From NCBI RefSeq assembly GCF_024623785.1, contig NZ_JANKBZ010000039.1:1-64000 (forward strand): a stretch of 64,000 nt of DNA, read 5' to 3'. The translations under genes and the position numbers were made by a program. Positions 24,843 through 62,113 of the stretch are shown here, piece after piece (within the stretch, counting starts at the first letter, position 1; the number at the start of each line of letters is the position of its first letter). This stretch comes from Archangium lipolyticum (GTDB lineage Bacteria; Myxococcota; Myxococcia; Myxococcales; Myxococcaceae). The notes beneath the pieces were generated by a model. The model saw only the letters and a list, made by a program, of their open reading frames with translations, searched no databases and was not told the origin of the DNA.

Positions 24843-25295
24843 ATGGCGAGCGACGACGCGTTCCCTCCAGACAAGCAGCAGATGATCGACAGCATCAACC
24901 GCTTCATGGCGGACTCCGTGCCGCACAACCGCGAGCTGGGGCTGAGCGTGGTGGAGCTCGGGGCGGAGGATGCCACCATGCGGCTGCCCTACTCGGAGAA
25001 GCTGGTGGGCAACCCCGAGACGGGGGTGCTGCACGGCGGGGCGGTGACAACGCTCATCGACGCCACGTGCGGCATCGCCGTCTTCATGAAGATGGCGCGC
25101 ATGGCGCGCATCGCCACGTTGGACCTGCGCATCGACTACCTGCACCCGGCCACTCCGGGGAAGGAGCTGCTGGCGCGCGCCGAGTGCTACAAGCTCACGC
25201 GCGCGGTGGCCTTCGTGCGAGCGCTCGCGCACCACGGAGACCCCGGCAACCCGGTGGCCTCGGCGCAGGGCACCTTCATCATCGTGGAGGACTGA
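24843..25295 (+). CDS. PaaI-family hotdog thioesterase (first of pair)
   Basis: A 150-residue hotdog-fold protein. The central helix motif GVLHGGAVTTLIDATCGIAV carries the HGG oxyanion signature and the acidic residue of the PaaI/YbgC-like acyl-CoA thioesterases; the strand TLDLRIDYLHP is also typical. These hydrolyse aryl- or acyl-CoA esters. It precedes a second PaaI-like gene by 3 bp, so the two are translated together and may form a heteromer. Confidence 0.88.
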   Translation: MASDDAFPPDKQQMIDSINRFMADSVPHNRELGLSVVELGAEDATMRLPYSEKLVGNPETGVLHGGAVTTLIDATCGIAVFMKMARMARIATLDLRIDYLHPATPGKELLARAECYKLTRAVAFVRALAHHGDPGNPVASAQGTFIIVED

Positions 25296-25298
25296 GGC

Positions 25299-25745
25299 AT
25301 GGAGAGCACGTCCACCCGCATCGCCGAGATCCTCCGCCAGGTGCGCCAGACGGGCGACTACCGTCTGCTCACCGAGGCCATTCCCTACACGCGCTTCCTG
25401 GGCATCGGCGTGGAGAACACCACGGGCGAGGTGCTCTGCCGCATGCGCTACGCGCCCATGCTGATTGGAAACAGCTCGCTGCCCGCGCTGCACGGAGGGA
25501 CGCTCGGCGCGCTGATGGAGTCCGCCGCCATCTTCGAGCTGCTCTTGCGCACCCAGGAGGAGCGCGTGCCGAAGATCATCAGCATCACGGTGGACTTCCT
25601 GCGCTCGGGCCGGCCGCAGGACACGCTGGCCAAGGCCACCATCACCCGGCTCGGCCGGCGCGTGGCCAACCTCCAGGTGCAGGCCTGGCAGGAGGACCGC
25701 TCCCGCCCCATCGCCAGCGCCAACGCCCTCTTCCTCCTGTCGTGA
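25299..25745 (+). CDS. PaaI-family hotdog thioesterase (second of pair)
   Basis: A 148-residue hotdog protein whose central motif is LPALHGGTLGALMESAAIFEL, with Glu in place of the first copy's Asp, and strand ISITVDFLRSG. It starts 3 bp after the first thioesterase gene. The two differ a lot in sequence, so they are an old duplication or separate recruits. A heteromeric acyl-CoA thioesterase is plausible, but the substrate is unknown. Confidence 0.87.
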   Translation: MESTSTRIAEILRQVRQTGDYRLLTEAIPYTRFLGIGVENTTGEVLCRMRYAPMLIGNSSLPALHGGTLGALMESAAIFELLLRTQEERVPKIISITVDFLRSGRPQDTLAKATITRLGRRVANLQVQAWQEDRSRPIASANALFLLS

Positions 25746-25894
25746 GGCACGCGGCATGCCCTCTGCATGACGCTCTCCCGCGACGCCAACAGGGTGCGCC
25801 CGGCGGAGGGCGCCCTCATCGTGCGTGGCCGCCGTCCGGCCGTCGCCGAGGCGGCATATTCATCGAGGAGAAGGAAGGAGCGCGGTGTAGGGGC

Positions 25895-27325
25895 ATGGCT
25901 CTCGATTGGAACAAGCTGCTGTGTGCAACACGCATCCGGGAAATCCTCCGGGGTCGCGCATCCGCGTCCACGCCAGGAGACATCCGTTCAGAGTTTGAAC
26001 GCGACCATGACCGGACCGTCTTCTCGACTCCCGTGCGGCGCCTCCAGGACAAGACGCAGGTCTTCCCCTTGGAGCCGAATGACGCGGTCCGGACGCGACT
26101 GACCCATTCGTTGGAGGTCTCGACGCTCGCGCGGGGTCTGACCCGAGGTGCGACCGGATGGCTCGTCACCCAGGGAGAGATTGCTCCAGCGCGAGCATCC
26201 GATATCGAGTCCATCGCCGCCACCTGCGGGCTGATCCACGACCTGGGCAATCCACCTTTCGGGCACGCGGGCGAGGCGGCGATCAGCAGTTGGTTCGAGA
26301 AGAAACGAGCGCGCGACACGGGCTTTTTCGGAGAGCTCGAGCGGAGCCGACAACTTCAGGACGACTTCCTCCACTTCGAGGGCAATGCACAGACGCTGCG
26401 CATCGTCTCCAGGCTTCAGATCCTGGCGGATCAATACGGATTGAACCTGACCGTCGGAACACTTTCCGCCGCCATGAAGTACACGGCGTCGTCCGATGCC
26501 CTCGCCGGGCCGACAGGACCTCACGAGAAAGAGAAACCCGGCTACTTCGCGTCCGAGCGGGAGATCGTCGAGGCAATCCGGGAGCACTCTGGGACCGGAG
26601 ACGTCCGCAACCCCATCGCCTACCTGGTCGAAGCCTGCGACGACATGGTGTACGCGACGGTAGACATCGAGGATGGGGTCAAAAAGGGAGTCATCAGCTG
26701 GCCGGGTGTCGAGGATGCCTTCGAGCACCTGACTTCCAAACCATCCGCTCAGGCTCTGGAGTCCATCCAGGACCACATCCGGCGCGCCAGTGATTACATC
26801 GACCAGGCCGCGACCGAATTGAGTCCGAAGGCGCGTGGCGAAGCCATTGCCCAGCACTTCAGGACACTCGTCATCGGGACGACCAAACAGGCCGTCCTCG
26901 AGACCTTCGCGTCAAAGTACCAGGACATCATCAACGGCACCTACCATGGCGAGCTCATCAAAGACAGCTCCGCGGCTGGGCTCATCAAGGCTTGCAAGTC
27001 CGTCGGCCGTGCGCACATCTACCGTTCGGAAGAGACACTCAGATTGGAGACCATGGGCCGCCGCATCATCCATGATTTGATGGACTTCTTCTGGGAAGGC
27101 GCTTCCGCCTATGACCCATCCATGGATCGCGCGGAATTCGATAGGACGTTCCAGGGGAAGATCTACAACCTGCTCTCGAGCAATTACCGCGCCGTCTTCG
27201 AGACCTCCATCAAGTCCCCGACGCTCCCCATTCGGTACCACCAATTCCAGTTGGTGACGGACTACGTTTGCGGCATGACGGACTCGTTCGCCTGCAAGCT
27301 CCACTCCCAGCTCACCCATGGATAG
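25895..27325 (+). CDS. dgt: dGTP triphosphohydrolase-like HD protein
   Basis: A 476-residue HD-domain dNTPase. The N-terminal FERDHDRTVFSTPVRRLQDKTQVF-type segment (residues 34-57), here split by the 20-residue limit, is diagnostic of Dgt. Metal ligands are His71 (THSLEVS), His115-Asp116 (GLIHDLGNPPFGH) and the Asp in EACDDMVYATVDIED near 249-250. It cuts dGTP or other dNTPs to the deoxynucleoside and triphosphate. Base use is less GC-extreme than its neighbours, which hints at transfer. Its stop overlaps the start of the nucleotidyltransferase by 8 bp, so the two are tightly coupled. Dgt enzymes act in dNTP control and in phage defence; which applies here is open. Confidence 0.85.
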   Translation: MALDWNKLLCATRIREILRGRASASTPGDIRSEFERDHDRTVFSTPVRRLQDKTQVFPLEPNDAVRTRLTHSLEVSTLARGLTRGATGWLVTQGEIAPARASDIESIAATCGLIHDLGNPPFGHAGEAAISSWFEKKRARDTGFFGELERSRQLQDDFLHFEGNAQTLRIVSRLQILADQYGLNLTVGTLSAAMKYTASSDALAGPTGPHEKEKPGYFASEREIVEAIREHSGTGDVRNPIAYLVEACDDMVYATVDIEDGVKKGVISWPGVEDAFEHLTSKPSAQALESIQDHIRRASDYIDQAATELSPKARGEAIAQHFRTLVIGTTKQAVLETFASKYQDIINGTYHGELIKDSSAAGLIKACKSVGRAHIYRSEETLRLETMGRRIIHDLMDFFWEGASAYDPSMDRAEFDRTFQGKIYNLLSSNYRAVFETSIKSPTLPIRYHQFQLVTDYVCGMTDSFACKLHSQLTHG

Positions 27326-28154
27326 CGGCGAGACCGGACAGCTCGAGGAGCTGCTGCGCGGGCGATTGAACGCCTTCATCCACCGCACGTCTCCATGGCA
27401 TCACGCGATTCATTCCATCCTTCGAAGAGCCAGGGAGCATGACTGGAGGGTCTTCGTCTTCGGTGGAACGCTGCGAGATCTGCTCACCCACCCCGAGACC
27501 GCCACCCCCCGGGATCTGGACCTGGTGGTCTCGGGCACGACGAGCGACAGGCTGCGCTCCGTCTTCTCCAGCGAGGTCATGAGGGTCACCCGGTTCGGTG
27601 GACTCCACCTGAACCTCCACGAGCAACCCGTCGACATCTGGACCCTCGATTCGACCTGGGCCTTCCGCGAGCGGCTGGTTGCTGGCTGCGACTTCGCGGA
27701 CCTCCCCAAGACCACCTTCTTGAACGTCGAGGCCGTCGTCGCCGAGCTCACCGAGCAACCCGGCCGGCCACGCACGGTGTATTCCCAGGGATTCTTCCGA
27801 GGCATCCAGGAACGGCAGGTGGAGATCAACCTGGAGCACAATCCCTTTCCCAGCCTCTGCGTGGTCAGGGCCCTCATCACGGCGCAGCGACTCCAATTCT
27901 CTCTCGGCCCCAGGCTGGTACGGTTCATCCTCCACCATGGGATGAGAACTCCCCTCGAGGAACTCGAGGCCGTACAGCTCCCACACTACGGCCACATCAG
28001 GCTTGATCGTCACGAGCTGCATTCGCTTCTCGGCTCGATGCGAGAACAGGCCAGTACCCTCAAGGTCCGTCCCGTCTCGCTGCCTCGAAAGCAGCAGCTT
28101 GAGCGACCTTCAAGATGGAACCTGGGTGCCGTCCCAGACAAGGTGCACCGCTAA
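27318..28154 (+). CDS. CCA-adding/poly(A) polymerase head-type nucleotidyltransferase
   Basis: A 278-residue protein. The head domain has GGTLRD (residues 49-54) and RDLDLVVSG (65-73), the GG and DxD signatures of class II tRNA/poly(A) nucleotidyltransferases. Later VVRALITAQRLQFSLG resembles the neck region that sets nucleotide choice. The C-terminal body and tail of true CCA enzymes are missing or very divergent, so it is shorter than the 400-plus residues of housekeeping CCA enzymes and is probably not one. Overlap with the dGTPase implies a joint function. Activity, substrate and RNA or protein target are unknown. Confidence 0.75.
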   Translation: MDSGETGQLEELLRGRLNAFIHRTSPWHHAIHSILRRAREHDWRVFVFGGTLRDLLTHPETATPRDLDLVVSGTTSDRLRSVFSSEVMRVTRFGGLHLNLHEQPVDIWTLDSTWAFRERLVAGCDFADLPKTTFLNVEAVVAELTEQPGRPRTVYSQGFFRGIQERQVEINLEHNPFPSLCVVRALITAQRLQFSLGPRLVRFILHHGMRTPLEELEAVQLPHYGHIRLDRHELHSLLGSMREQASTLKVRPVSLPRKQQLERPSRWNLGAVPDKVHR

Positions 28155-28187
28155 GGCATCACGCGGCTTCCCGTCGTCCACGAAGGC

Positions 28188-28724
28188 CTACAGCTGCTGG
28201 CCCTCGCTGCTCACGCGCTGGTGCCGCAGCTCCCGCTCCTCTTCCGCGAGCGCCCGGAGCGTCTTCTCCGCGAGCCTCAGGCCCCACTGCTCGCCCAGCT
28301 GCATCGCCTCCTGCATCACCAGCGGCTGCGCCGCGAGGAAGCGCTTGCCGGCCGGTGACTCGTGGAAGGCGATGGCCGCGTCCAGGTCCTCCTCGGAGAA
28401 GTGGTTCATGTACACCGGCACCAGCAGCTCCACGATGGGCTCCTGCGCGGCCACCTCGCGGAACTTCTCCAGGAAGCCCGATGGGATGTTGGACATCTCC
28501 CCGAAGTGCTGCGTCATCGAGTCGAGCATCCGCCTGCCCGTGTCCTCCGCCCCCGTGAGCACCATCAGCTTGCGGACCTTCTCCTCCTTGCGGTGCGAGG
28601 ACTGCCACTCGGCCTCGGGTGGGGAGGACTCCACCGGAGCGCTCGCGCTCGAGTGCGCGCAGCCCACGGCGAGAAACGCGAGAACACACCACCGCCAGGA
28701 CGCCAGGAGCCGGAAAGAGCGCAT
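28188..28724 (-). CDS. DUF2059-type lipoprotein
   Basis: A 178-residue protein with a lipoprotein signal: hydrophobic core WCVLAFLAVGC and Cys as the lipidated residue. The mature part is helical with the DUF2059 features KVRKLMVLTGAEDTGRRML and HFSEEDLDAAIAFHESPAGK. DUF2059 proteins are found in the envelope; their role is not known. The start at 28724 gives the compact signal peptide; an upstream ATG at 28778 would add 18 residues in front of it. Confidence 0.8.
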   Translation of the reverse strand: MRSFRLLASWRWCVLAFLAVGCAHSSASAPVESSPPEAEWQSSHRKEEKVRKLMVLTGAEDTGRRMLDSMTQHFGEMSNIPSGFLEKFREVAAQEPIVELLVPVYMNHFSEEDLDAAIAFHESPAGKRFLAAQPLVMQEAMQLGEQWGLRLAEKTLRALAEEERELRHQRVSSEGQQL

Positions 28725-28838
28725 GGAGCAGCCCTCCGCATCGAGATGGACTCCAGGATAGTCCCCGCGCCCACGCACCGGTAAAGGGGGGTGCTCCCCG
28801 CCAGGCCCGGGCCAGCTCGCGCCCGTCGACTGCCCGAC

Positions 28839-32596: not shown

Positions 32597-32617
32597 CCCT
32601 CTCCCTCTGGGAGAGGG
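32597..32617. repeat. REP-like hairpin 2
   Basis: CCCTCTCCC-tct-GGGAGAGGG followed by CTGGGGTGAGGGTCATC. Centre-to-centre distance to hairpin 1 is 66 bp, with a spacer related to that of the doublet at 34682-34769. Confidence 0.85.
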
Positions 32618-32782
32618 CTGGGGTGAGGGTCATCCCCCGTGCGAGAAACGACCCGCGTCCCGAAATGAGGCCCCGGGCCACCATCACGCTGGCGGCCCCC
32701 GTCCACGGCGAGTCCCGAATCACGAATCAGAGCCACGAATCCGGGGGGATCCTCTCGAGAGAGGAGAAGACCCTCACCCCGG

Positions 32783-32803
32783 CCCTCTCCCAGAGGGAGA
32801 GGG
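32783..32803. repeat. REP-like hairpin 3, inverted
   Basis: CCCTCTCCC-aga-GGGAGAGGG in the opposite orientation (CCCTCACCCCGG precedes). It faces hairpin 2, 20 bp from the Cys-rich gene's stop codon. The 32522-32825 gap holds only these three repeats. Confidence 0.8.
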
Positions 32804-32825
32804 AGAGCCTGCTACCGTCCAAGAC

Positions 32826-34748: not shown

Positions 34749-34769
34749 CCCTCTCCCCCTGGGAGAGGG
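34749..34769. repeat. REP-like hairpin 5
   Basis: CCCTCTCCC-cct-GGGAGAGGG then CTGGGGTGAGGGTCTTC. It is 67 bp (centre to centre) from hairpin 4 with a spacer matching the one at 32531-32617. Confidence 0.85.
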
Positions 34770-34831
34770 CTGGGGTGAGGGTCTTCCCCACTCGTCACCC
34801 CCGAGGGCACGCGCTAGAGTAGGTGCCCGAA

Positions 34832-38066: not shown

Positions 38067-38098
38067 GTCAACCCGGGAGGCGGATACCCTCACCCCGA

Positions 38099-38119
38099 CC
38101 CTCTCCCAAAGGGAGAGGG
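38099..38119. repeat. REP-like hairpin 6, inverted
   Basis: CCCTCTCCC-aaa-GGGAGAGGG preceded by TACCCTCACCCCGA. It lies between the convergent glycosidase-like gene and the three-gene M28 operon and could terminate both. Confidence 0.85.
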
Positions 38120-40188: not shown

Positions 40189-40255
40189 GGGAGGGGACTC
40201 TACCCGGACCCGGGCAGCAGAGCAGGCGGGAGTCGCACCGATGCGGCCCCTGCCT

Positions 40256-40276
40256 CCCTCTCCCCCTGGGAGAGGG
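40256..40276. repeat. REP-like hairpin 7
   Basis: CCCTCTCCC-cct-GGGAGAGGG followed by CCGGGGTGAGGGTCTTCC, the same type as hairpin 5. It sits between divergently oriented genes, unlike most copies. The rest of 40189-40423 shows no gene. Confidence 0.85.
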
Positions 40277-40423
40277 CCGGGGTGAGGGTCTTCCCCGAGC
40301 GCCAGGCAACCGAGCACAACCCAGCCCCGGCATCTGGCTCGCCGGATGACCACATCCCACCTTTGCGAGGAAACGAAGCCACGGGCCCGGCGAGGCCGGC
40401 CGAAGGCGGAAGGGAGCCGCGGG

Positions 40424-57015: not shown

Positions 57016-57960
57016 TCATCCCACCTGACGGAAACGCGCGTACCGCTCCTCCAAGAACCGCTGTCCTGGCTGCTCCTCTCGATTCCGGGGCAAATGGAGG
57101 CTCTGGCCATGGAAGGCCTTCACCGCGTGCTCCAGCGTCGGACCATCACGAGTCTCGAGCAGCGTCTTGGACAGTTCGATGACCCCATCGGGGCGGATAC
57201 CCATCAAGTCTGTGTCGAACACGCCGTGATGCAGCCGGCACAGCGCCAGTCCGTTCGGCACCACGGGCTCTCCCTTCTCCTCCCGGTCCGGCACGATGTG
57301 CGCCGCGTCCAACAGTTCCGCCCGAGGTAGCCGGCACACCGCGCATCTCGTCTCGTAGGCCCTCAGCACCTCCAGCCTGAACCGGGCCTGGTGCAATCTC
57401 CGCTTCGCCTGGACCGTGACGTACTCGCGGCGGCCGTCGCTGCCCTTCGCATCCGCCACCATCGGCACGCCGAGTTGCCGCACCGCCAGCACCGCATCGT
57501 CGGCCGAGAGCGTGCACTCCATCCGCTCCCGGTCGATTCCCCGGATGTAGATGGGCCAAATGGGTTGGTAGACGCCCACCTCGACCGCGCAGAAGTAGAT
57601 CAACGGCACCGACCACTTCCACGCCCACTCGAGCAACTGATTGTCCCGATTGTCCGGGTCGTCCCCCTGCAGCTTATAGATGAAGACCCCATCATCCTTC
57701 TGGGAGTCCTCGTAGCGCGCGATGCGGCCCCCACGCGGAATGATGGTCTTGATGGAGAGGGGTCCACCTCCTCGCATCTCCTTCGGCCGGAAGATGCCTC
57801 TCGCCTTGGTGGCGAAGTGGAAGTGCTGGCCCTTGAAGTCGAAACCTCGCTGGACGATGTCCCACTCCAACGTGGGCCCGTAACGCGCCACCAGCCGCTC
57901 CAACATCTGGAAGGCGGCAGCGCGGACTTCCCAGTCTGGATCAACCGTAGGTAGGGCCAT
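57016..57960 (-). CDS. HNH endonuclease
   Basis: A 314-residue nuclease. The N-terminal 180 residues match the sensor half of a restriction-like family: GIFRPKEMRGGGPLSIKT, YKLQGDDPDNRDNQLLEWAW and PLIYFCAVEVGVYQPIWPIY. The C-terminus is an HNH nuclease with zinc Cys pair CAVC, LDAAHIVPD and NGLALCRLHHGVFD. Proteins of this layout may restrict modified or foreign DNA. It lies in an accessory stretch with no methylase. The ATG at 57960 begins MALPTVDPDW. Confidence 0.84.
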   Translation of the reverse strand: MALPTVDPDWEVRAAAFQMLERLVARYGPTLEWDIVQRGFDFKGQHFHFATKARGIFRPKEMRGGGPLSIKTIIPRGGRIARYEDSQKDDGVFIYKLQGDDPDNRDNQLLEWAWKWSVPLIYFCAVEVGVYQPIWPIYIRGIDRERMECTLSADDAVLAVRQLGVPMVADAKGSDGRREYVTVQAKRRLHQARFRLEVLRAYETRCAVCRLPRAELLDAAHIVPDREEKGEPVVPNGLALCRLHHGVFDTDLMGIRPDGVIELSKTLLETRDGPTLEHAVKAFHGQSLHLPRNREEQPGQRFLEERYARFRQVG

Positions 57961-59414: not shown

Positions 59415-61238
59415 TCAGTAGGGAAAGCGAGCCCCGGGCCGCTGGACGTACGTGTCCACCATGGGAACATTGAGGACGGCGGCGTCGGGGCTGTGGTCTA
59501 CCTTGGTTGGGTCGACCTCGACGCCCCTGATGGGGAATGCCGCGTACGTCTGTACTCCGAACTGCTTCCTGGAGCCCTGGTCCACGGCCGCCGCGCAAAT
59601 GGGAGAGGGCACGCGGCCGCGTGTCGGGTAGAGCTGATCGAGGTAGATCCGGTCGAATTGAACGTAGACCCGATCCGGAAACACCTTCGCCTCCCCCTTC
59701 ACCCAGTAGGTCCTGTCGTCAGGCAAGATCATCCACCCCTCCACCGGCCCGGTCCGGATGTTGATCGCGGCCGACTCCGTGACACCCGCCAAGGTGGTTG
59801 TCACCAGTTCGACGTCCGTGAGGGGTCCCTTGAGGTTCATCTTGTCGGCCGTCGCAAGAGCCTCGGGAGGGCAGCGCGCGAGGAGTTCCCCATGGTCGGG
59901 CCTAACGGGCACTCCCGCACAGGCCAGGAGATTTGCCGAGGCCGCACAGGCTCCAAGCAGCGCACAGATGCCCCCGAAAGGTCTTGGCGGTGCTGAGAAC
60001 AAGGAGGAGTCATCGTCAGTCCAGGAAGTGAGCACGGGAGTGTGTCCTTTCTCGGTAGGCGCTGGCATGACCAGCGAGGTGGAAGCCGCGCCGCGACACG
60101 CCTCTTCCATGGCAGACGCGCACACCGCGCGGATGAGCCAACACCCTATCCCGAGCAGAACCAATCCGAGAGCGAGCACTGCCAGCGACCTTTCCCAGGT
60201 TGCGTGATGCGGCGCCTCCTGCTGCCGCTCATCCGTGCGCCCGGCCTCCTCGGGAGCTTCCTGGACCTCGCCAGTTCCAGATAGGAGCAGTTCCTCCTCG
60301 CGCCCGGCGGGAAAGGCATACGGCACTGTCCAGGCTTCCGTAGCCACATCCCTTCGCAGCACTCGCATCAACTCCTCGTGGACAGCCCTGGCACTCAGAG
60401 GTCGCTGCTCTGGATCCTTCGCCAGCAGCCTCATCACCAGCGCGTTCAGGGCTGGTGGCACTCGCGGGTCCAACAGCATGGGTTCCTTGGGCGGAAGGAA
60501 CTCGATGGCGAGCAGCAACTGTGCCGGAGGCAGACGGGGATTGAAGGGATGACAGTCGGTAAGGGCCTCGTAGAGCAGGGCCCCGAAGGCATAGAGGTCA
60601 GCCGAGGGCTTCGCGGGAAGGCGAGCACCGTCCTCCCACTCGCCACTTCGCAGGAAGGCAGCCACCTCCGGGGGCATGTTGTGGAACGTCACCGGCGGCA
60701 GAGCTTGCGTCAGCGTGTAGGCCCCCGGCAGGAACACCGCGCCGAAGTCGATGAGGAAGGGCTTTTCATCGCCATCCCTCACCAGGATGTTGTCGGCCTT
60801 GATGTCTCGGTGGCACACGCCTCGCTCGTGCAGTTCCGCCAGCACCAGGGCCACCTCTCCCAGCACACCCACCAGCCGGCACAACGGAGCGTGCGTCCTC
60901 CAGCGCCATTCGTTGAAGGTGGAGCCGGGAACGTAGTCGGTGACGAAGAAGAAATGGCCCCGCTCCAGGTCCGGCCAGCGGCCCATCTCGTGGACGACCA
61001 GCAGGTTGGGGTGCCGGAAGTGCCCCAGCGAGATCGCCTCACGAAAAGCCCGCTCGTCCTCACGGGCCTCGTCATCATCGCTCGGCGGATGTGCCGCCAT
61101 CTTGAGTGTGTAGGGCTGGCCTTCGTGCTCCACCAGGAAGGCGATCGCGAAACCACCCCGGCCCAGGCGACGAACCACCCGGTAGTGCCGAATGGTATCT
61201 CCCGGCTGAAGCAGGTCCGGATGGAAGGGCTTTGTCAT
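59415..61238 (-). CDS. Ser/Thr protein kinase with extracytoplasmic C-terminal domain
   Basis: A 607-residue kinase. The kinase domain has LGRGGFAIAF, the VAIK-type Lys in YTLKMA, CHRDIKADN and LIDFGA (DFG), followed by an activation loop with the MPPEV segment. A membrane helix (LAVLALGLVLLGIGCWLI) divides it from a C-terminal half with a second hydrophobic, Cys-rich stretch (ICALLGACAASANLLACAG) and a folded region ending in VDTYVQRPGARFPY. In related species this second part is a separate gene, so a fusion is possible. ATG overlaps the DUF2381 stop. Confidence 0.85.
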   Translation of the reverse strand: MTKPFHPDLLQPGDTIRHYRVVRRLGRGGFAIAFLVEHEGQPYTLKMAAHPPSDDDEAREDERAFREAISLGHFRHPNLLVVHEMGRWPDLERGHFFFVTDYVPGSTFNEWRWRTHAPLCRLVGVLGEVALVLAELHERGVCHRDIKADNILVRDGDEKPFLIDFGAVFLPGAYTLTQALPPVTFHNMPPEVAAFLRSGEWEDGARLPAKPSADLYAFGALLYEALTDCHPFNPRLPPAQLLLAIEFLPPKEPMLLDPRVPPALNALVMRLLAKDPEQRPLSARAVHEELMRVLRRDVATEAWTVPYAFPAGREEELLLSGTGEVQEAPEEAGRTDERQQEAPHHATWERSLAVLALGLVLLGIGCWLIRAVCASAMEEACRGAASTSLVMPAPTEKGHTPVLTSWTDDDSSLFSAPPRPFGGICALLGACAASANLLACAGVPVRPDHGELLARCPPEALATADKMNLKGPLTDVELVTTTLAGVTESAAINIRTGPVEGWMILPDDRTYWVKGEAKVFPDRVYVQFDRIYLDQLYPTRGRVPSPICAAAVDQGSRKQFGVQTYAAFPIRGVEVDPTKVDHSPDAAVLNVPMVDTYVQRPGARFPY

Positions 61239-62113
61239 GGCGGCAATCTCACATCCTCCAGACGCAGTGTCCGAGGGCCCGCCTCCTCCAGCGTCAATGC
61301 CAGACACTGGACCCCCTCCGGAATCCACACGGCGAAAGTGTGGACCTGCCGTTGCTGCCCACCCACGGCCTTCGTCATGAGAGTGGGAGGCGTGAGTTCC
61401 ACACCCGATCGAGCGTCCTTGCACCGTGTCTCCAGTCGATAACGCAGGAGCTGCCAGGGCTTGGAGGTACGTCGAATGGACTTGATGGCCACGGTCACGA
61501 ACAGACGCCGATCCATCCGGAGAAGGGATTCAACCCGGGCCTGGACATCATCCACTCGCGTGAAGATCTGCGCTTCATCGTAGATGACGAGCGCCAGCCT
61601 CGGTTGAGCGCCCGGCTCGTGACTCGCGAGGAGCATCCTCGCCACCGCGTCCACGTCATTTCCCTCCACTGTCTCCGACCCTTGAGCCTGCCCCGGCGCG
61701 AGCACCACACGCGCTGTCAGGTCCACCTCGTTCCGCCGGGTGACGAGCGCCAGCGTCAGTGTGCGCGTCTCGCCCGCCTCCGTCCTTCCCGTCACCGGCA
61801 GCAGGACGCGCTCCCCGTCCGCCAGGTCGCGCAAGGGAACGACCACCAGCGAACGCGCCCCCACCCGAAGCACCCCGACCCGCTCCTCCACCCCGGGCGG
61901 CAGGAGCACGTGCGGTTCGAGCAGGCCCTCGAAGTCCACCAGCGTGGACAGACCCGCGGCCACGCACAGCACGGGTGATGCCCCTCCCGGCTGTCCCGCG
62001 AGGAGCACGGTCCCCTGCCTCTTCTCCCGCCCGGAGGCCCATGCCTCCCTCGCGGTCACCGTCGTGGACACGAGCAGGACCCAGAGCAGGACAGTCCAGG
62101 AACGAGGACGCAC
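61235..62113 (-). CDS. DUF2381-family secreted protein
   Basis: A 292-residue exported protein from GTG 62113, with a signal peptide (WTVLLWVLLVSTTVTA) and the myxobacterial DUF2381 pattern (TLVDFEGLLEPHVLLPPG, ALTLEEAGPRTLRLEDVRLP). These paralogous proteins are often next to Ser/Thr kinases. It overlaps the kinase start by 4 bp and may be its sensor partner in the envelope; that role is inferred. Confidence 0.82.
   Translation of the reverse strand: MRPRSWTVLLWVLLVSTTVTAREAWASGREKRQGTVLLAGQPGGASPVLCVAAGLSTLVDFEGLLEPHVLLPPGVEERVGVLRVGARSLVVVPLRDLADGERVLLPVTGRTEAGETRTLTLALVTRRNEVDLTARVVLAPGQAQGSETVEGNDVDAVARMLLASHEPGAQPRLALVIYDEAQIFTRVDDVQARVESLLRMDRRLFVTVAIKSIRRTSKPWQLLRYRLETRCKDARSGVELTPPTLMTKAVGGQQRQVHTFAVWIPEGVQCLALTLEEAGPRTLRLEDVRLPP

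Follow-up and report, generated by a model that had tools for sequence, protein, structure and literature searches.

The window, as we call the whole 64,000-nucleotide stretch of DNA that was analysed, carries two overlapping genes on its + strand: a cloA-type dGTPase gene encoding an HD-domain dNTP triphosphohydrolase (25895-27325, ATG start, 476 aa), and a cloB-type gene for a nucleotidyltransferase (NTase) of the Pol-beta superfamily (27318-28154, +, ATG start, 278 aa). Both frames are intact and all catalytic residues are present. The open reading frame coordinates place an 8-bp overlap at 27318-27325 (+), as a preliminary description of this DNA had noted; an overlap of the same length is also seen in L009, L011 and L017, and it suggests translational coupling. 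That description spoke of the dGTPase as "fused in operon" with its neighbour; the operon with overlapping genes stands, but the genes encode two separate proteins and not a fusion. It was also right that the pair is less GC-rich than its surroundings, the GC fraction being 0.61 for the dGTPase gene and 0.63 for the NTase gene, while the window as a whole and each of the flanks stand at 0.689, and only 3.2% of equal-length stretches of the 64,000-nt window have a lower GC than the pair. At third codon positions the pair has a GC of 0.78, compared to about 0.95 in the thioesterase genes upstream.

These thioesterase genes (24843-25295 and 25299-25745) form the upstream flank and are retained by every one of the six genomes of the genus; the downstream flank is a DUF2059 gene (28188-28778, -). 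Between them lies an accessory insertion of about 2.43 kb (25755-28184) holding just the two genes, which is missing from the same site in G046, where the flanks abut. The operon sits in the same place in G045 (Archangium violaceum by L009/L010). In G044 the site holds about 0.1 kb; in G047 (L069:2282-4657) it is occupied by a gene with an RNA_ligase domain (PF09414) together with an unknown 411-aa gene, and in G043 (L072:1362-3737) by a 791-aa gene with a marginal Cas3b profile match (E 4e-4). The operon, then, behaves as an accessory module, and its site is variable: two congeners have nothing or almost nothing there, and two more have different cargo, whose genes may serve accessory or defence functions not yet described.

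Neither immediate neighbour of the pair in the window is a known defence gene. Elsewhere in the window, in a low-GC region, a Ser/Thr kinase-like protein is encoded at 59415-61424 (-) that matches the mad6 and PD-T4-6 kinases of PADLOC; since kinases are common in myxobacteria, a defence role for it is doubtful. An HNH endonuclease gene (57016-57960, -; PF13391 and PADLOC HNH restriction models) lies near it in a low-GC stretch. Separately, dispersed repeats of about 35-45 bp occur in both orientations at 32597-32636, 32768-32805, 34749-34788, 38086-38119 and 40251-40295, and they also match the nearly empty site of G044 (L071:3798-3887).

The two genes find their counterpart in Clover, an anti-phage dNTPase-NTase operon that pairs the dGTPase CloA with the nucleotidyltransferase CloB (Yamaguchi et al. 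2025, PMC12265719). The window dGTPase passes the TIGR01353 dGTP_triPase model (E 1.9e-95) and matches the PADLOC dGTPase model with E 1.2e-72, and its best PDB matches are 9p8s to 9p8v (E about 1e-86 to 1e-83, the lowest being 6e-86), with E. coli Dgt at 1e-50. Entries 9P8S-V are the structures of CloA in apo and ligand states (PMC12265719); the codes are printed in that paper as 8P9S-V, probably a slip, as 9P8S-V is the form found both in the PDB file and in the sibling entry 9P8W. Identity to Salmonella CloA is 37.6%. In a tree of 37 dGTPases, in which the Clover rows were set against 23 other dGTPases, the Clover CloA rows came together in 81% of the bootstrap trees, a modest support (82/57).

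To compare ligand sites, the contact residues named in PMC12265719 were mapped onto the homologues through an alignment, the Salmonella CloA sequence being taken from the printed 9p8t alignment, whose letters match the paper at all contacts checked except Q377, which reads as E. The six catalytic residues of CloA, comprising the HD motif and the HE dyad, are all kept: H71, H115, D116, H124, E127 and D249 of the window protein align with CloA H69, H117, D118, H126, E129 and D242. The contacts to the thymidine dinucleotide p3diT (5'-triphosphothymidyl-3'5'-thymidine) were taken as R29, R34, R38, R314, Q311, D37, N181, F41, N75 and T25 in CloA numbering. Eight of these ten are identical in the window dGTPase, and T25 and N75 are replaced by P and T, respectively; in dGTPases outside Clover the count falls to five (the second dGTPase of the same genome), four (Listeria) and three (E. 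coli Dgt). All three arginines whose mutation abolishes inhibition of CloA (PMC12265719) are among those retained (R31/R36/R40 for R29/R34/R38). Every Clover row has the whole triad, and not one of the three controls does. The dTTP site (R49, D63, Q175, K263, S428, N430, T462 and F465 in the window) does not discriminate, seven of nine contacts being identical both in the window protein and in the Listeria control; the dTTP-stacking Y452 of CloA is F here, and A444 is a main-chain contact.

For the NTase, family profiles give sub-threshold Pfam and NCBIfam matches only (NTP_transf_5, PolyA_pol, pcnB), with scores of 15.9 bits against a cut-off of 23 for PolyA_pol, 18.3 against 305.65 for pcnB and 11.4 against 290 for CCA, and a PDB sequence search found no solved structure matching it by sequence. 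A profile built solely from ten myxobacterial NTases, with E-values calculated for a search space of 10,000 sequences, nevertheless matches CloB of E. coli H5 (E 7e-39), a second E. coli CloB (2e-39) and CloB of a Phaeobacter plasmid (1e-42). The invariant columns are FGG, RD, D66-x-D68, D106 and W108 (F48-G49-G50 and R53-D54 in the window), and the CloB motif [D/E]h[D/E]...h[D/E]h is present as DLDLV at 66-70 and VDIW at 105-108, the latter containing D106. Residues D66 and D68 correspond to D71 and D73 of H5 CloB, whose mutation releases toxicity (PMC12265719), although overall identity to H5 CloB is about 21%. The term "minimal" given earlier to this NTase is fair as far as its profile matches go, but the protein is a relative of CloB rather than a cut-down CCA enzyme. 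The suggested addition of nucleotides to RNA 3' ends was likewise not borne out, as CloB, the closest tested relative, makes p3diT (PMC12265719).

The NTase is single-copy in its own genome, and homologues occur in 10 of the 145 genomes of the order, in every case with a CloA-type dGTPase adjacent; the same ten come back when 195 genomes of the phylum are searched with a profile. The dGTPase matches in the order separate cleanly into two sets. Ten reach E<=1e-97 and are all paired with the NTase; the others, including the unpaired second dGTPase of the source genome, lie at E>=1e-62. Weak NTase matches in G030, G093 and G103 (E about 1e-4) come from proteins of 413-469 aa that the NTase profile misses, and they were discarded as CCA/poly(A)-type enzymes of the ordinary kind. 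When the window NTase alone was scanned against genome contigs, the A. violaceum copy was the only one found, since a search by short patterns taken from a single diverged protein overlooks the more distant CloBs; a scan of viral contigs with Salmonella CloA found none. Far from being absent elsewhere, an outcome that the preliminary description had allowed for, the pair recurs in ten myxobacterial genomes and, outside the myxobacteria, on a Phaeobacter plasmid and in E. coli.

We therefore consider it very likely that the gene pair is a Clover anti-phage operon, on the grounds of the homology of both genes, the conserved residues, the exclusive linkage and the site-specific presence and absence. 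The enzyme activities, the identity of the signal and the phage protection of the window copy are presumed by analogy with the Salmonella and E. coli systems. In such a scheme the dGTPase CloA would lie dormant until phage replication drove up dTTP, and the enzyme thus activated would destroy dGTP and so starve phage DNA synthesis. CloB, meanwhile, would constantly make p3diT from dTTP, and p3diT, binding a pocket of arginines that lies at the dimer interface of CloA, would raise the dTTP threshold for activation and so spare uninfected cells from poisoning. The proposal of a defence module made from the letters of the DNA is thus supported, by homology to a tested anti-phage system and by a patchy, site-specific distribution; the module is not, as had been supposed, undescribed. 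It is a real immune operon, but Clover and its presence in Myxococcia have already been reported, the latter among more than 650 systems (PMC12265719). What the locus offers is a variable site defined in the genus, at which Clover alternates with other cargo and empty sites, and a diverged clade (about 37% CloA and 21% CloB identity) that could serve to test how strict the recognition of p3diT and dTTP is.

Along these lines, let us consider the possibility that CloB of the myxobacterial clade produces some dinucleotide different from p3diT, or that CloA of the clade answers another dNTP. Several ligand contacts are changed throughout the clade (N75 to T, T25 to P, E or A, N175 to A, Q127 to A and Y452 to F), and of these N75 reads the base of the second thymidine and Q127 contacts the substrate guanine in the active state. 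However, the clade retains R314, the three arginines of the triad and the base contacts D37 and Q311 (E in L017 only), the distant CloB of Xanthomonas also makes p3diT (PMC12265719), and Phaeobacter CloA, with its 51% identity to Salmonella CloA, has the Y452F change as well. We regard an altered signal as unlikely.

That two accessory genes came together by chance here, or form a pair in decay, is very improbable. Signs of decay do exist among relatives: in the CloA gene of A. violaceum Cb vi76 (L009:4575-4605; G045:C129), codon 5 is a TGA in frame and the start after it comes beyond the p3diT arginines, the adjoining CloB being intact, so that we see here either a pseudogene or truncated allele or else a draft error. 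In G047, two scraps of the dGTPase gene flank the thioesterase pair (L069:991-1103 and 2243-2280), about 95% identical to the window's gene and corresponding to 27078-27190 and 27172-27209 there, which suggests that this genome once had the operon and has lost it. Against decay or chance stand the intact frames and full catalytic complement of the window copy, as well as the recurrence of the pair described above. As for a housekeeping dGTPase beside a tRNA-repair or poly(A) nucleotidyltransferase, the weak PolyA_pol and pcnB matches of the NTase speak for it, but the far stronger match to H5 CloB, the absence of the pair from most relatives, and the separate full-length CCA enzyme (NF009814, 292.9 bits against a cut-off of 290), PcnB (TIGR01942, 343 against 305.65) and stand-alone dGTPase (at C4) of the source genome make it scarcely credible; because of these separate CCA and PcnB genes the NTase was rejected as the cell's CCA enzyme, and the earlier thought that it might be the only one in the genome does not hold.

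Placed among known systems, the Clover operon of the window shares with the CCA-adding enzyme and PcnB a Pol-beta-type NTase head with GG...DxD, but its NTase is without the CCA body and matches the CCA and PcnB profiles far more weakly than it does CloB. A CloB-like NTase gene on Kovacikia minuta plasmid pA (L023:2815-5606) overlaps a gene for a 668-aa protein, with no dGTPase; judged by eye from its GGGVRG and GTSAGS, that protein resembles a patatin-type phospholipase, and the arrangement looks like a CloB-type enzyme with another effector. The stand-alone anti-phage dGTPases (Shewanella putrefaciens SpdGTPase, PADLOC dGTPase) have the HD-domain dGTPase fold in common with the window protein; they are hexamers active without an activator (PMC12265719) and have no NTase partner, unlike the myxobacterial loci. 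On the conjugative plasmid pP14_b of Phaeobacter piscinae (L022), dgt and a small NTase gene are adjacent as in the window, separated there by an 8-bp gap; this CloA bridges the two sets, with 51% identity to Salmonella CloA and 41% to that of the window, whereas its CloB is just 22% identical. Directly upstream of that pair (L022:3947-7446) are genes annotated as phage Gp37/Gp68 family and as three-Cys-motif partner TcmP. A Clover-like pair is also present in E. coli Z226-7 (L058:3908-6137), where it sits between flhB and cheZ and splits a flagellar/chemotaxis cluster.

The closest comparison is with the systems of Salmonella enterica SA20044414 and E. coli H5, from which the anti-phage data come (PMC12265719). 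The H5 operon was located in E. coli genomes with a back-translated CloA DNA query, and its locus reads as a CloA of 471 aa and a CloB of 276 aa, lengths nearly equal to the 476 and 278 aa of the window, with genes overlapping by 47 bp. There, as in the window, cloA precedes cloB on the same strand and the gene ends overlap; the HD and HE residues, the DxD...D of the NTase, the arginine pocket for p3diT and most dTTP contacts are alike too. What differs is the identity of about 37% and 21%, the replacement of T25, N75, Q127, N175 and Y452, and the genomic site, which in these systems is a tRNA-Sec/integrase island and in the window the interval between the thioesterase genes and the DUF2059 gene.
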